From assembly GCA_017438975.1 (NCBI GenBank), contig JAFRUH010000026.1:53921-117920 (forward strand): a stretch of DNA of 64,000 bases, read 5' to 3'. Shown piece after piece: positions 5,502 through 53,725 of this stretch (within the stretch, counting starts at the first letter, position 1; the number at the start of each line of letters is the position of its first letter). The translations under genes were made by a program, and so were the position numbers. The notes beneath the pieces were generated by a model that was given only the letters and a program-made list of their open reading frames with translations, made no database searches and was not told the DNA's origin. The stretch comes from Bacteroidales bacterium. Its GTDB lineage: Bacteria > Bacteroidota > Bacteroidia > Bacteroidales > UBA932.

Positions 5502-6509
5502 TTATTCGGAAAGGAGGAAGAGGACTTCCTCAAGGGAAAGGGTATTGTCGATGGAATAGGTTCCGCTGCGGGTGCGGACGAGGGAGTCGAGATGGGCACC
5601 GCTTCCGAGGGCCTCCCCGAGGTCGCGGGCGAAGGCGCGGATATAGGTGCCTTTGCTGCAGGCGATGCGGATCCGGGCGAGCGGAAGGCCTTGAAGGTCA
5701 GCTGTATCCGCCACATGTATCCGCGAGGACGCAGTACCGGTATCCCCTACTTTCGGAGAGGGGGTCTCTCCTGAAACCCAAGTCCCTCCCGGAATCTCGG
5801 GCCCGTCGTCCGATAGTGAACTATCGTCCATCGTTTCCTCCGATTCCGGGCCCCTCCCGTTCATGAGGCCACGGGCGGCCACAGGTTTCAGGAGAGACCC
5901 CCTCTCCGAAACGGGGCCACCGGGCGTCGCCGCGCACGCAGAAAAGGAAAGCAGTTCCAGGGCGGAGATTTCGATCTTCGCGCACCGGAGCGTCTCCAGG
6001 GCGGCCGCATCGAAATCCTCCCCTGCCGACTCCCCTCTCTGCACCTTGCGGTACATCCTCCGGGCCATCTCATACGCCCGAACCCCGTCGACCGACTTCG
6101 CGCTGAAAAGCGGAGCGACCTGCTCCTGGACCCCGAGAAAGGACGGCAGGACAGCCTCGACTGCCTCCCGCGTTACATGTTCATAGGGGAAACGGCGGTC
6201 GACCTCTTTCTCGAGGTCATAGGAAGGCGTCGTCGCACCGAACCGGATTCCGGCGACGTATTCCTTGTCATGGGACTGAAGTTCCTCGGCCCGCTTGGTC
6301 GCATTCCCGATGCAGACGAGCAGAATTCCCGTCGCGAGCGGGTCCAGCGTCCCGGCGTGGCCGACTTTCAGGTTTTTTTTGCCGAAGTGACGGATGGCGG
6401 CGTACTTGACCTTCCGGATTACATCGGCGGAGGTCCACCGGTACGGCTTGTCCACGGGCAGGACAATCCCGTCCGGATAGTCGTCGATGGACCTGGAGAA
6501 TTTATCCAT
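5502..6509 (-). CDS. truB: tRNA pseudouridine-55 synthase TruB with in-frame palindromic insert
   Basis: Converts U55 of the T-loop of tRNAs to pseudouridine. The N-terminal region has the catalytic motif GHAGTLDPLATG, with the nucleophile Asp56, and the later KEY and CSKGTYIRAF blocks of the family. The protein is 335 residues, clearly longer than the 230-250 usual in this phylum. The excess sits between ELLSF (about residue 189) and LARIRIACSKG (about residue 277); residues 200-253 are encoded exactly by a 161-bp palindromic element (see the repeat at 5751). The insertion is in frame, in a loop before the conserved strand, so activity may persist. The start overlaps the end of rpiB by 8 bases. 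Confidence 0.94.
   Translation of the reverse strand: MDKFSRSIDDYPDGIVLPVDKPYRWTSADVIRKVKYAAIRHFGKKNLKVGHAGTLDPLATGILLVCIGNATKRAEELQSHDKEYVAGIRFGATTPSYDLEKEVDRRFPYEHVTREAVEAVLPSFLGVQEQVAPLFSAKSVDGVRAYEMARRMYRKVQRGESAGEDFDAAALETLRCAKIEISALELLSFSACAATPGGPVSERGSLLKPVAARGLMNGRGPESEETMDDSSLSDDGPEIPGGTWVSGETPSPKVGDTGTASSRIHVADTADLQGLPLARIRIACSKGTYIRAFARDLGEALGSGAHLDSLVRTRSGTYSIDNTLSLEEVLFLLSE
5751..5911 (-). repeat. In-frame palindromic element, copy 1 (inside truB)
   Basis: A perfect 28-bp inverted repeat (5751-5778 with 5884-5911) flanks about 105 bp that hold nested dyads: CCCGGAATC at 5788-5796 with GATTCCGGG at 5842-5850, and the core CGATAG-TGAA-CTATCG at 5811-5826. The whole could fold into one long hairpin. 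On the coding strand it adds a Gly/Ser/Pro/acidic peptide ending GETPSPK to TruB without shifting the frame. Its right half is related to the element at 52310-52435: both have GGGCCCCTCCC followed by a similar 35-base tract up to the right arm. I read both as members of one dispersed family. Confidence 0.88.
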
Positions 6510-50158: not shown

Positions 50159-51279
50159 AGGACCCCCTTGCTGCTCGGAATGTCATACCGGAACGGATCT
50201 TGCCGCACGGCGGCCCCGAGCGTTCTGGCGAAGGCCTTGAAGACGGACTCGGCGAGGTGATGGTTGTTTCCGCCACGGGCCCGGATGTGGAGGTTGCAGC
50301 GGAGAGCCGTGCAGAGGGACTGGAAGAAATGGCTGTACATTTCCGTCGGTGTATCTCCCACATATTCCCGCGTGAAAGGCACATCCCAGCTGAAATCCGT
50401 CCGTCCCCCGAGGTCCATAAGCACCAGGGCGTCGCAGTCGTCCATAGGCAGGGCGAACCCGTAGCGCCCGATTCCGCGCCGGTCGCCGAGGGCTTCGAGA
50501 ATGGTCTCCCCGAGGGTGATCGCGATGTCTTCCATCGTGTGATGCTCGTCGATGTCCAAATCTCCGGACGCCTCGACCTGCAGGGATATGCCGCTGTGGT
50601 GGGGAATCTGGTCGAGCATATGGTCCAGGAACCGCAGGCCGGTCGAAACGGAGGAGTCCATCCTTCCGTCCAGGTCCACCGCGACGCGGATCCGGGTCTC
50701 CCGGGTCACCCGCTCCCGCACTGCGCGGCGCACGCCCCGGCGGATATACTCGGCGATTTCGGCCCAGTCGTTGGTGACGAGTTCGCAGGAGAGGCCTTCT
50801 TCCGCGATGAGCGGAGCCGCCGTCTCCGGATCGGAGAGGAGGATCGCCCTTGCGCCGAGGTTCACCGCCAGGCGGACATCGGTCAGCCGGTCGCCGATGA
50901 CATAGCTCCCGGCGAGGTCCCATTTCCCGTCCAGATAGTCTGTGAACATGCCGGTCCCGGGTTTCCGGTTCGGCGAATGGTCTTCAGGCATGGAGGGATC
51001 GATCAATTCGTCATCGAAGACGACTCCTTCCCCCGCGAGGGTCTCTTTCATGAGGCTGTGGGAGGGGAGGAAAGTCTCCGTAGGAAAAACTTCGCTCCCG
51101 AGACCATCCTGGTTGGATGCCAGAACCATGCGAAAAGGCAGGGGACGCAGGGTCCTGAGCGCAGAGATGGCCCCGGGGACGAAGTGGAACTTGTCCAAAC
51201 TGTCAATCTGCTCATCGTCGGGTTCCCGGAGGATCGTCCCGTCGCGGTCGATGATGAGTAATTTACGAATTTCGTCCAT
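50155..51279 (-). CDS. hisB: HisB: histidinol-phosphatase / imidazole glycerol phosphate dehydratase
   Basis: Bifunctional protein of 374 residues. The N-terminal 170 residues are a HAD phosphatase (nucleophile IDRDGT, later KPGTGMF and GDRLTDVRLA); the C-terminal 190 are the manganese dehydratase with HMLDQIPHHSG, DEHHTMEDIA and the second HHLAES site. It overlaps the HisD-HisC gene by 17 bases and hisH by 4. Confidence 0.97.
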   Translation of the reverse strand: MDEIRKLLIIDRDGTILREPDDEQIDSLDKFHFVPGAISALRTLRPLPFRMVLASNQDGLGSEVFPTETFLPSHSLMKETLAGEGVVFDDELIDPSMPEDHSPNRKPGTGMFTDYLDGKWDLAGSYVIGDRLTDVRLAVNLGARAILLSDPETAAPLIAEEGLSCELVTNDWAEIAEYIRRGVRRAVRERVTRETRIRVAVDLDGRMDSSVSTGLRFLDHMLDQIPHHSGISLQVEASGDLDIDEHHTMEDIAITLGETILEALGDRRGIGRYGFALPMDDCDALVLMDLGGRTDFSWDVPFTREYVGDTPTEMYSHFFQSLCTALRCNLHIRARGGNNHHLAESVFKAFARTLGAAVRQDPFRYDIPSSKGVL

Positions 51280-53725
51280 AAGCAGAAAGGGATTGGATCA
51301 TTTTGTCATTTTCTTCCGGGGTGCCGACGGTCAGGCGGAGGGCCGGGCCGCAGCCCCGGGTCGTGGAACGGTCCCGGACGATGATGCCGTCCGAGATCAG
51401 GTGGGCATAGAGTCCCTTCGGGTCAGGGGTCTGGACGAGGAGGAAGTTGGCGTCGCTCGGGAAGATCTTCTTGATGAAGGGAAACTCTTTCAGCCGCTTC
51501 TCGAGCCGTTTCCGCTCGCTCCGGATCAGGTCGATTTCCTTCCGGGTCTTTTCGGGGTCCAGGAGCCTCGCCGCGAGGGAGAGGGTGTCCGTACCGATAT
51601 TATAGGGGTATCGTACGCGGTCGAACAGGGTGATCAGTTCCGGTGCCGCCAGAGTCAGGCCGATCCGCAGTCCCGCGAGTCCCCAGGCCTTGGAGAGCGT
51701 CTGGAGGATAATCAGGTTCGGATATTCGTCCAAGAGCGGAATGAGGGATCCTTTTTCGGAGAAGTCCGCATAAGCTTCGTCGAGAACGACCATCCCGGGG
51801 AATCTTTCCAGCAGCGTCCGGATGTCCGTTTCGGGAAAGGAGTTCGCCGTCGGGTTGTTCGGGGAACAGACGAAAAGAAGCTTGGAATTCGCGTCCGCGG
51901 CCGCGAGGATTCTCCCGACAGGCAGGGAGAAGTCTGGGTTCAGGGCGATAGGCCTGGCCTCGATATCATTGGTATCCGCCGCGACCCGGTACATGCCGTA
52001 GCTCGGGGCGATCATCAAGGCGTTGTCGATCCCCGGCCGGCAGAAGACCCGGTAGCACAGGTCGATCGATTCATCGCTGCCGTTTCCGAGGAAGACCCTT
52101 TCCGGGGCGACTCCCTTCAGGGAGGCGATCCGCTTGAGAAGAGTGCTTCGGAGGGCGCGGGCCGGATACCGGTTCATGTCCTCTTCGCCGAAGGGATTCT
52201 CATTGGCGTCGAGGAGGATACCGAGTTCTCCCTGGTATTCGTCACGGGCCGTCGAGTAGGGCAAGAGGTTCCGGATGTTCTCCCGTACGAGAGAGAGGGA
52301 CGCCGCTTCCGGGGAAGGGGTATCGGCCTCCGAACCGTCTCCGCTCCGCTCCGACCCCTCCCAGGCCGAGCCTGGGCCCCTCCCTCTTACATGGCCGAGG
52401 GTAGCCATGGGTTCTGAGTCCGATACCCCTTCCCCAAGGCGTCCCTCCGCTTCGTCCAGCCGGACGAGGACGGCTTCGGCGTGGGCATCGAGCCCTTCGG
52501 CCCGGGCCATCTCCACGATGGTCCCCCCGATCCGGGAAAGCCCCTCGCGCGTAAGGGACTGATACGTAATCGCATGCATGAACTGTTCGACACCGAGTCC
52601 GCTCCATGCCGTCGCAAGACCGAGGGTCGGCAGGGTATGGTTCGTCCCGCTGGCATAGTCGCCGGCGCTCTCCGGGGAATAAGCTCCGAGGAATACGCTT
52701 CCGGCAGCTGTAACCCGTTCCGAAACAGCTTCGGGATCCTCGACGGAGAGGATCAGATGCTCGGGCGCGTAGAAGTTGGCGAAATCGATGCGGTCGTCGG
52801 GATCGGAAAGTACGATGATCCGGCTCTCGGAAAGGGCTCCGTCCACGATGCTCTCCCGGGGAAGCAGCGCCTTCCGGCGTTCGACTTCCGAAAGAGCCTT
52901 TTCCGCCATTGCCCGGTCCGGGCAGACCAGAAGCACCTGGCTGTCAGGCCCGTGCTCCGCCTGCGAGAGCAGGTCGGCCGCAATGAAACGGACATCGGCG
53001 GAAGCGTCCGCAAGCACCATCACTTCCGAAGGGCCGGCCGGCATATCGATGGCCGTACCCTCCCGGGCGACCTGCTGCTTGGCCTGGAGGACATACCGGT
53101 TGCCCGGTCCGAAGACCTTGTCGACCTTCGGGACGGTTGCGGTTCCATAGGCCATGGCCGCGATCGCCTGGGCACCGCCGATCTTACAGACGGTTCCGAT
53201 GCCGCAGAGACGGGCGGCGAAAAGCAGCGCCGGCGCGATCTTGCCGTCTTTCCCCGGGGGGGTGCAGAGGACCCGTTCCGGACATCCGGCGATCGCAGCC
53301 GGGATTCCGAGCATCAGGACCGTCGAAAAGAGCGGAGCCGACCCGCCCGGGATATAGAGACCGACCCGGCGGACCGGCAGGAAGCGGCGGCGGCAGACGA
53401 TACCGCGCCCGTCATCCCATACCGAATCCGAAGGAACCTGGGTCGCGTGGAAGGCACGGATCCGGGCGTAAGCCTCCCGGATCGCCGCTTTCAGCGATTC
53501 GGGGACGGCTGCTTCCGCTTCCTCGAACTCCTCTTCCGTAACCAGGAGCGGAGACGGGACCCATCCTTCGATGGAGCGGATCACATCTTCCAGGGCGGAG
53601 TCTCCCCCCTCCCGGATCCTGCGCAGGATTCCGTCGACCCTCTCCTCGAGGACGGCGTCTTCCCGATGGACCCTCCGGGCGAGGGCCTCCCATTCCGACC
53701 GTTCAGGCTCTACGTAAATGTTCAT
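51263..53725 (-). CDS. hisDC: HisD-HisC fusion joined by a palindromic element
   Basis: One 820-residue frame. Residues 1-425 are histidinol dehydrogenase (zinc ligands Gln255, His258, Asp356, His415, spaced as in E. coli; catalytic APEHL at 320-324). Residues 475-820 are histidinol-phosphate aminotransferase, with DANENPFG, SPNNPT and the PLP lysine 679 in LSKAWGL. The two enzymes are normally separate neighbours in this phylum. Residues 431-472, which lie exactly between them, are encoded by a palindromic element (see 52310). The insertion seems to have replaced the stop-start junction and fused the genes. Each domain looks complete. The order in the operon, after hisG and before hisB, is the standard one. 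Confidence 0.93.
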   Translation of the reverse strand: MNIYVEPERSEWEALARRVHREDAVLEERVDGILRRIREGGDSALEDVIRSIEGWVPSPLLVTEEEFEEAEAAVPESLKAAIREAYARIRAFHATQVPSDSVWDDGRGIVCRRRFLPVRRVGLYIPGGSAPLFSTVLMLGIPAAIAGCPERVLCTPPGKDGKIAPALLFAARLCGIGTVCKIGGAQAIAAMAYGTATVPKVDKVFGPGNRYVLQAKQQVAREGTAIDMPAGPSEVMVLADASADVRFIAADLLSQAEHGPDSQVLLVCPDRAMAEKALSEVERRKALLPRESIVDGALSESRIIVLSDPDDRIDFANFYAPEHLILSVEDPEAVSERVTAAGSVFLGAYSPESAGDYASGTNHTLPTLGLATAWSGLGVEQFMHAITYQSLTREGLSRIGGTIVEMARAEGLDAHAEAVLVRLDEAEGRLGEGVSDSEPMATLGHVRGRGPGSAWEGSERSGDGSEADTPSPEAASLSLVRENIRNLLPYSTARDEYQGELGILLDANENPFGEEDMNRYPARALRSTLLKRIASLKGVAPERVFLGNGSDESIDLCYRVFCRPGIDNALMIAPSYGMYRVAADTNDIEARPIALNPDFSLPVGRILAAADANSKLLFVCSPNNPTANSFPETDIRTLLERFPGMVVLDEAYADFSEKGSLIPLLDEYPNLIILQTLSKAWGLAGLRIGLTLAAPELITLFDRVRYPYNIGTDTLSLAARLLDPEKTRKEIDLIRSERKRLEKRLKEFPFIKKIFPSDANFLLVQTPDPKGLYAHLISDGIIVRDRSTTRGCGPALRLTVGTPEENDKMIQSLSAYGRNS
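52310..52436 (-). repeat. In-frame palindromic element, copy 2 (linker of HisD-HisC)
   Basis: Inverted arms 52311-52336 and 52410-52435 pair over 26 bp with two mismatches; the core CCCAGGC-CGA-GCCTGGG (52360-52376) is a perfect 7-bp dyad. The tract from GGGCCCCTCCC (52374-52384) to the right arm matches the corresponding part of the truB element at about 30 of 48 bases. Encoded residues 431-472 contain P-x-A-x2-G-x3-GRGPxS and end in ADTPSPE, as the truB copy ends in GETPSPK. Orientation and reading frame agree in both copies. Confidence 0.86.

Follow-up and report, generated by a model that had tools for sequence, protein, structure and literature searches.

The two long palindromes that lie in frame in truB and in a fused hisD-hisC gene of the window (the whole stretch of 64,000 nucleotides of contig JAFRUH010000026.1 that was analysed) belong to a dispersed family of elements of a Bacteroidales genus. 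Its copies have a core in common, carry paired arms that differ from locus to locus, occur at around thirty per genome in the window's genome and its closest relative and sit mostly behind the 3' ends of genes; at sites shared by these two genomes the interior is often inverted and the two arms have changed jointly, and one empty site and several apparent deletion remnants were found. Our best explanation, which we hold to be probable, is a non-autonomous REP/RPE-like family that spreads as hairpins and has its arms renewed and its core flipped by template switching. The kind of element is known, and both the family and the way it behaves count as new within the literature searched: no description of the family, its flipping or its four-frame reading was recognised in the full texts among the matches listed, a collection with subscription papers mostly outside it.

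Among the ten inverted repeats listed for the window, the two best are the arms of copy 1 and copy 2 (Table 1) and the other eight are 71–83% complementary. Two palindromes with long inverted arms and a common 11-base identity had been proposed from the sequence alone, and both could be confirmed in place, the common 11-mer being GGGCCCCTCCC at the two core motif positions of Table 1. Both copies indeed have the same element orientation and frame, giving the peptides ..NGRGP.. and ..VRGRGP.. and in both cases the end TPSP. In the TruB protein of the window the Pfam domains TruB_N (residues 45–152) and TruB_C_2 (291–330) flank the insert, and the HisD-HisC fusion is one frame of 820 residues with Histidinol_dh at 19–423 and Aminotran_1_2 at 516–813. 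Searched by BLAST against the genome that holds it, copy 1, which is long and diverged for the family, matched nothing beyond its own sequence and arms.

Table 1: Features of the window that belong to the two copies and their host genes (positions within the window).
Feature	Position	Strand	Basis
truB (tRNA pseudouridine synthase B), holds copy 1 in frame	5502..6509	-	translation; Pfam
Palindromic element, copy 1 (161 bp, sense on minus)	5751..5911	-	model R1 match, E 1.1e-4
Copy 1 outer arm, 28 nt, 100% complementary to 5884-5911	5751..5778		inverted-repeat search
Copy 1 perfect hairpin within long variable stem	5811..5826		read from sequence
Copy 1 core motif, GGGAGGGGCCC on minus	5848..5858	-	sequence position
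Copy 1 hairpin 1, GGCCgcccgtGGCC on minus	5867..5880	-	by eye; taken as stem 1 counterpart (alignment A2)
Copy 1 outer arm, partner of 5751-5778	5884..5911		inverted-repeat search
Fused hisD-hisC, copy 2 at junction	51263..53725	-	translation; Pfam
Copy 2 of the palindromic element	52311..52435	-	model R1, E 6.7e-22
Copy 2 outer arm, 26 nt, 92% complementary to 52410-52435	52311..52336		inverted-repeat search
Copy 2 variable hairpin 2	52360..52376		sequence; covarying stem
Copy 2 core motif, GGGAGGGGCCC on minus	52374..52384	-	sequence position
Copy 2 hairpin 1 (loop TACCCTC side of ACCCTC loop)	52390..52409	-	sequence; covarying stem
Copy 2 outer arm, partner of 52311-52336	52410..52435		inverted-repeat search

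Draft assemblies were used throughout, with the 2.8 Mb draft of the window's own genome (G000) and its closest relative among those searched (G239) at the centre; the nearest TruB relatives of the window are MAGs named Bacteroidales or Bacteroidia, many of them from ruminants. The core pattern GGGAGGGGCCCN{3,33}GGGAGGGG occurs at 22 places in G000 and nowhere in the backward control, so its recurrence is not due to chance, and it is present in 12 of 149 genomes of the taxonomic family. This motif pattern was needed first, BLAST of copy 1 being insufficient, and led to a covariance model (R1) built from 43 copies. With it we found 32 copies in G000 and 33 in G239, with only copy 1 and copy 2 reaching E 1e-3 within the window, and at least one copy in 71 of 80 genomes of the genus with a completeness of 90% or more (0 to 40 per genome, 978 matches in total). 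The claim of the sequence-only reading that this lineage has a palindromic family of its own is therefore borne out by the core pattern, by the copies of G000 and by the range across the genus. Neither of the two outcomes that would have spoken against it was seen, an absence of further copies or the same inserts in relatives with ordinary protein conservation and no palindrome, although in the hisD-hisC copy of G239 arm pairing is no longer detectable. Seven loci gave no match in Rfam 15 at the gathering score (three matches seen elsewhere were far under the gathering scores), the core pattern had no match in viral contigs and copy L193 none in plasmids and phages.

Read 5' to 3', the element consists of an outer arm whose end is usually ..GAAACC, stem 1 and its loop ACCCTC, TAAGAGGGAGGGGCCC, a variable stem 2, GGGAGGGG, stem 3 and the second outer arm (typically starting GGTTTC..), which makes three inner stems and long arms within about 100–180 bp. 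The near-invariant core is flanked by arms of mostly 20–34 bp that pair almost perfectly and differ in sequence from copy to copy. Arms are present in 108 of 109 copies with a median of 27; they reach 20 or more in 91 of these 108, and 40 of the 91 are perfect. In the alignment of 43 copies 86.5% of the cells are paired, compared to 72.6% in shuffled alignments and 39–54% in slid structures, and both sides have changed in 242 cells of arms and stems versus 84.7 in shuffles. None of 500 shuffles reached any of the five covariation measures, some of which relatedness alone can raise above shuffles. The ACCCTC loop and an invariant GAGGG downstream could form a pseudoknot, which is only an idea because its five pairs never vary. 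At the base of hairpin 3 the sequence GACG (CGTC on the other strand) is found in 33 of 43 copies and GTAG occurs on either strand in 8 of 43, neither being invariant. Some model matches (L206, L219, L233, L235, L240) measure about 136–142 bp, and alignment of two of them, L233 and L240, shows an insert of about 40 bp, also palindromic, nested within stem 2.

We compared the sites that are occupied in only one of the two genomes (11 in G239, 10 in G000) for L197, L239, L227, L230 and L254 and in part for L219 and L228. One clean filled/empty pair was obtained, L230 in G239 and L344 in G000, in which 6 bp lie between the matched flanks and the empty site has no arms; no target-site duplication is visible at this one clean site, and among the copies compared no donor pair with clean ends was found and no movement was seen. 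The insert L239 lies in a Mur ligase gene whose counterpart in G000 has 40 bp between the matched flanks and no insert, L343 looks like a partly deleted remnant, and L261, the G239 counterpart of L197, is a hairpin made of arms only. L201 and L243 had no counterpart match in the stretches searched, the flank search for L199 ended near G239 contig ends before an empty site was obtained, and at the G000 counterpart of L228 the two neighbours are separated by about 3.2 kb of different sequence and not by an empty site (L346, G000:C18:17000-23000).

As the arms differ at nearly every locus, the core might be thought to insert into pre-existing hairpins such as terminator stems, the arms then being target DNA and for this reason locus-specific, and the arms-only hairpin L261 would fit such an origin. 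We have set this aside as very improbable on the basis of the empty site L344, which has no hairpin, and of the sequence content of the arms. Anchored at their inner ends, 75 arms have a positional motif in common whose outer 17 positions carry 7.24 bits, far above the shuffles (mean 1.13, maximum 1.42 bits), so the arms are not random target DNA, and their inner ends GAAACC/GGTTTC are part of the family sequence. The other remnants, L343 as well as L036 and L049 in truB, resemble partial deletions.

At truB a match lies in the variable stretch between the domains in 23 of 80 loci of relatives (E values of 1e-5 or lower for 22 of them and 0.0048 for L030), with 12 copies in one orientation and 11 in the other, and fragments are kept at this stretch in several other loci including L036 and L049. 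On the TruB tree, which is weakly resolved with 36 of 77 inner branches open, presence changed at least 17 times, a soft count. The sequence-only reading had looked to truB and hisD/hisC of relatives for clean insertion sites and target duplications: truB gave variable occupancy and remnants, and the clean empty site, without a duplication, came from elsewhere. The same stretch of truB also harbours other short palindromes or palindrome-like inserts unlike the family (L026, L057, L034, L042 and L051). A different in-frame repeat (VIPSEVEGS / CHSERSEES) is located before the FDAA/FDSA stretch in the truB of two relatives (L008 1717-2697, L016 3001-3966), and a related peptide VIPSEAKES is found elsewhere in the protein of a third (L005 3001-3966); we take this VIPSEVEGS-type repeat to be a widespread bacterial repeat.

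Genes around the copies were called with a codon-usage caller trained on the window, which miscalled at least L242. For the 65 copies of G000 and G239 it places 28 between convergent and 24 between co-directional genes, none between divergent genes and 10 in genes, with one neighbour uncalled in the remaining 3; the 10 are a lower bound, L242 being called intergenic and its ortholog L217 in a gene, and 5 of the 32 copies of the window's genome are called in genes. Counting each shared site once gives 43 sites with 20 convergent, 14 co-directional, 0 divergent, 7 in genes and 2 unplaced, and the baseline of 51 gene pairs in the window has 7 convergent and 6 divergent. Of the 28 convergent copies, 20 have both ends within 22 bp of predicted gene ends. 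A further 44 copies form a second set, taken not at random but from the top of the score list (40 stretches in 18 other genomes); it has 24 copies in genes, 13 co-directional, 3 convergent, 3 divergent and 1 unplaced, so that 3 of its 19 intergenic copies with both neighbours called sit between genes called divergent. The orientation of the copies relative to the gene is mixed, and L254 adjoins an apparently ordinary T-tract terminator. The term protein-invading, which had been used for the family, is therefore correct in that many proteins carry a copy in frame, but describes only a part of the copies, the rest being mostly behind gene 3' ends.

Taking both sets together, 34 of 109 copies lie in predicted genes, and 27 of these 34 hosts were scanned against Pfam (7 from G000 and G239, including TruB and HisD-HisC, and 20 of 24 from the second set, with 7 hosts left out), each of which matched a family. 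Named by our reading of these Pfam families, the hosts are TruB, histidinol dehydrogenase with aminotransferase, RsmH/MraW, TrmB-like, Mur ligase and TilS-like proteins, RibF (L241, L281, L272, L304), an alanine-racemase-N (YggS-like) protein, glycosyltransferase 2, shikimate kinase, formyltransferase, a TruA-like protein, a GH95 protein, PG_1098-like proteins and others. Many inserts are spanned or flanked by the Pfam match, as for PF01171, which matches residues 2–225 over 182 positions around an insert at 136–177. An AlphaFold2 model of TruB, of low overall confidence (mean pLDDT 65.6, shallow alignment of 14 sequences), gives the insert region a mean pLDDT of about 29–49 per block between better strands.

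It had further been suggested that the element is selected for staying open in one frame, and examination of the frames in the 34 in-gene copies did not bear this out: four frames, two in each orientation, are used about equally. In the sense orientation 7 copies are read in phase 1 (..VRGRGP..) and 7 in phase 2 (..KREGP..), in the antisense orientation 8 in phase 1 (..GPLPL..), 7 in phase 2 (..WAPPSY..) and 1 in phase 0; the remaining 4 had no anchor match and have peptides that look like phase 1. Since one DNA core is kept and different peptides are read from it, it is not conserved for a peptide. Sense phase 0 is rarely open (4 of 70 copies between genes, 1 of 30 within them), as the conserved TAA would lead one to expect. 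For antisense phase 0 the open copies number 25 of 70 between genes and 14 of 30 within them, the latter as many as for antisense phase 2, yet this phase is used only once, so openness alone cannot explain the use of frames. Inverting the element in silico leaves the host frame open in 21 of 33 in-gene copies versus 34.5% of 1975 control segments (p 0.0007), the controls being segments of the same genes with unmatched G+C (elements 0.64, genes 0.60) and the copies partly non-independent. That the two inserts of the window are just ordinary evolving linkers or chance palindromes has practically no probability left: the linkers of TruB and HisD-HisC are poorly conserved, as this would have it, but it is refuted by the count of the core pattern and by a DNA core that recurs 32 times in G000, mostly outside genes and with four frames read, which places the conservation at the DNA level.

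The second site of the window is not a loop within one gene, as insertion at tolerant loops would have it, but the junction of hisD and hisC, which are separated by a stop codon in 26 of 29 loci of relatives examined. In G000 and G239 a single reading frame runs through both genes and the element lies where they join; it may have caused the fusion. In L135 and L136 an unrelated 74 bp palindrome joins hisD and hisC in frame, an independent fusion at the same junction.

G000 and G239 share 22 sites, whose aligned stretches are 76–92% identical, and at 10 of them the interior is inverted; in truB the G239 copy (L004/L256) runs opposite to the window copy between arms that hardly differ. Over 21 scored pairs the mean agreement is 97% between the two arms within a copy and 69% (median 75%) between the two genomes for a given arm. 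Arms were recognised through their complementarity, which raises the 97%, but the difference is wide and can be seen in the alignments, and together with the covariation it supports the proposed turnover of arms with pairing preserved. Much arm sequence common to different loci was seen only for L228 and L243. The 91 copies with arms of 20 or more have 82 mismatches in 2518 arm pairs, and on known RNA strands these include 16 G-U and 24 A-C mismatches (p 0.27); there is no G-U excess, and the type of mismatch gives no support to the idea that the arms are maintained for RNA pairing. Counting ties, 15 of 22 cores find their best G239 match in the ortholog; the mean identity is 0.90 for orthologous cores and 0.75 for paralogs. 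Cores at 0.90 next to arms at 0.69 are not predicted by neutral decay after insertion, which means that each core is selected or that cores are renewed, and so a separate constraint acts on the core. For L204/L245 the ortholog core has rank 19 of 33 and for L212 rank 8, and some of the flips such as these may actually be replacements.

Polymerase template switching between inverted repeats is reported in PMC8604942 as a source of homogenised arms and inverted spacers, and it explains best both the flips and the joint change of the arms. If the flips and new arms were instead the result of repeated independent insertions at hot sites, one would understand the few pairs that differ in core as well as arms (L204/L245, and L207 and L211 with their G239 partners, which contain a nested insert) and the occupancy of truB with its two orientations and many presence changes. 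We nevertheless regard this as improbable, as inverted pairs often have like arms (85% for L194/L225, 78–81% for L203/L231 and 93% for L224/L256) and for 6 of the 10 inverted pairs (L194, L195, L205, L216, L222 and L224) no G239 core matches better than the ortholog.

A structured 3'-end element that is useful to the host, for example a terminator, an mRNA-stabilising or a protein-binding hairpin, with selection on RNA structure at each site and in-gene copies as by-products, would agree with the absence of divergent neighbours among the 52 intergenic copies of G000 and G239 and among the 43 distinct sites, with orthologous cores that are conserved one by one and with the strong covariation. 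It appears unlikely to us, although less so than repeated insertion, in view of the lacking G-U excess, the mixed orientation to the gene and the inversions at shared sites, the nearly one third of copies within reading frames, the apparent terminator beside L254, the lack of a matching Rfam family and the three divergent intergenic copies of the second set.

Proteins of the Y1_Tnp family (PF01797) are encoded in 59 of the 80 genus genomes, and the median number of copies is 12 in genomes with and 1 in genomes without them. The subfamily of L311 is present in 46 of 80 genomes, namely in 33 of 36 with 10 or more copies and in 13 of 44 with fewer, and in none of the 9 genomes that have no copies; G164, G210 and G234 are rich in copies and do not have it. 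This association is based on genome counts in which kinship is uncontrolled. The proteins of L223 and L311 contain DHYH/DHIH and YLDNNP/YVGNNG, which resemble the HuH and Y motifs listed in PMC6006769, a paper that covers the TnpAREP subclasses of Bacteroidetes. Two kinds of Y1_Tnp, MPDHIH-like and MSNHVH-like, exist in the genus (L309–L338; 10 of 30 loci gave a protein to the motif search), and in G000 the RAYT-like gene of L223 (1974-2939, minus strand; DHYH, YLDNNP) ends 90 bp from the end of a copy-bearing trmB-like gene. RAYT genes flanked by copies (REPtrons) were not encountered, a copy being present in roughly 3 kb around only 1 of 30 Y1_Tnp loci; two further pairs that their coordinates place close together (G000:C28 and G227:C3), not seen flanking on both sides, may be no more than chance. 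We see about an even chance that a RAYT-like HUH protein moves the element in trans, the link being correlative.

In the template-switching reading that we favour, copies would spread as hairpin-forming single strands and be cut and pasted in trans, most likely by the co-occurring RAYT-like HUH transposase. The arms of an inserted copy could fold during replication, and a polymerase switching template between them would copy one arm onto the other and invert the interior, leaving the arms near-perfect yet free to drift and the core flipped in place, with a separate constraint presumably keeping the core. Landings in genes would survive where the element is open and lies in a linker or loop, and many landings and flips may be tolerated, each strand of the core offering more than one frame that can be open; one landing between hisD and hisC would now be within a single fused gene. 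It is quite possible, although we would not lean towards it, that this is a mobile element shaped for life in proteins, with all its information in a short core readable in several frames and both orientations, arms of little fixed sequence that mainly pair, are rewritten all the time and flip the core via template switching, and a role as a steady source of in-frame peptides and of gene fusions at operon junctions.

A gut Bacteroidales genus would have a Rickettsia-like habit on the scale of the whole genus, and its shared sites allow one genome to be set against another. Arm complementarity amid divergence (template switching versus RNA selection), readability in several frames and the fusion of neighbouring genes become testable questions with this family, and the orientation of an insert and its arm sequence at a shared site are unreliable markers of independent insertion.

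Compared to known systems, the family resembles bacterial MITEs such as ERIC, BOX, Correia and BrickBuilt as short non-coding mobile repeats with terminal inverted repeats. The terminal inverted repeats of MITEs are common to their copies, whereas the arms described here are copy-specific with a weak motif in common and have mainly their pairing kept, and no target duplication was found at the one clean site. Protein-invading palindromes are best known from Rickettsia, where their spread and their tolerance by proteins are still open questions. Like the Rickettsia palindromic elements (RPEs), the family has palindromes of about 100–150 bp in frame in unrelated housekeeping genes, even in truB, and dozens of copies; it differs by its lineage, by being read in four frames, by inversion at shared sites and by the 5 of 32 copies called in genes in the window's genome, a distinction made by description. 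RPEs are about 150 bp long, and PMC10969869, which reviews them, gives dozens of copies and a conserved peptide for each RPE; such a favoured frame or conserved peptide was not found across the 34 in-gene copies. According to PMC3733652, RPE-1 lies in truB of R. conorii and REPs in the truB genes of several bacteria, and REPs are found behind genes and between convergent genes, often less than 20 bp from gene ends, and some within ORFs. With REP/RAYT systems the family has in common the position at 3' ends and between convergent genes (no divergent neighbours at 34 distinct intergenic sites of G000 and G239, 3 of 19 in the second set), copies within ORFs including truB and a co-occurring RAYT-like HUH protein. 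REPs are, however, hairpins of 20–40 bp with a GTAG or CGTC tag according to PMC3733652, our elements have about 100–180 bp and no invariant tag, and RAYT genes are rarely near the copies. Coding palindromes in the mitochondria of Nematomorpha are likewise inverted repeats within coding DNA, and a dispersed family with a conserved core is undescribed in the abstracts of PMC6649704 for these and of PMC8604942 for yeast. The template-switched inverted repeats of yeast too lie in genes and combine homogenisation of the arms with inversion of the spacer.
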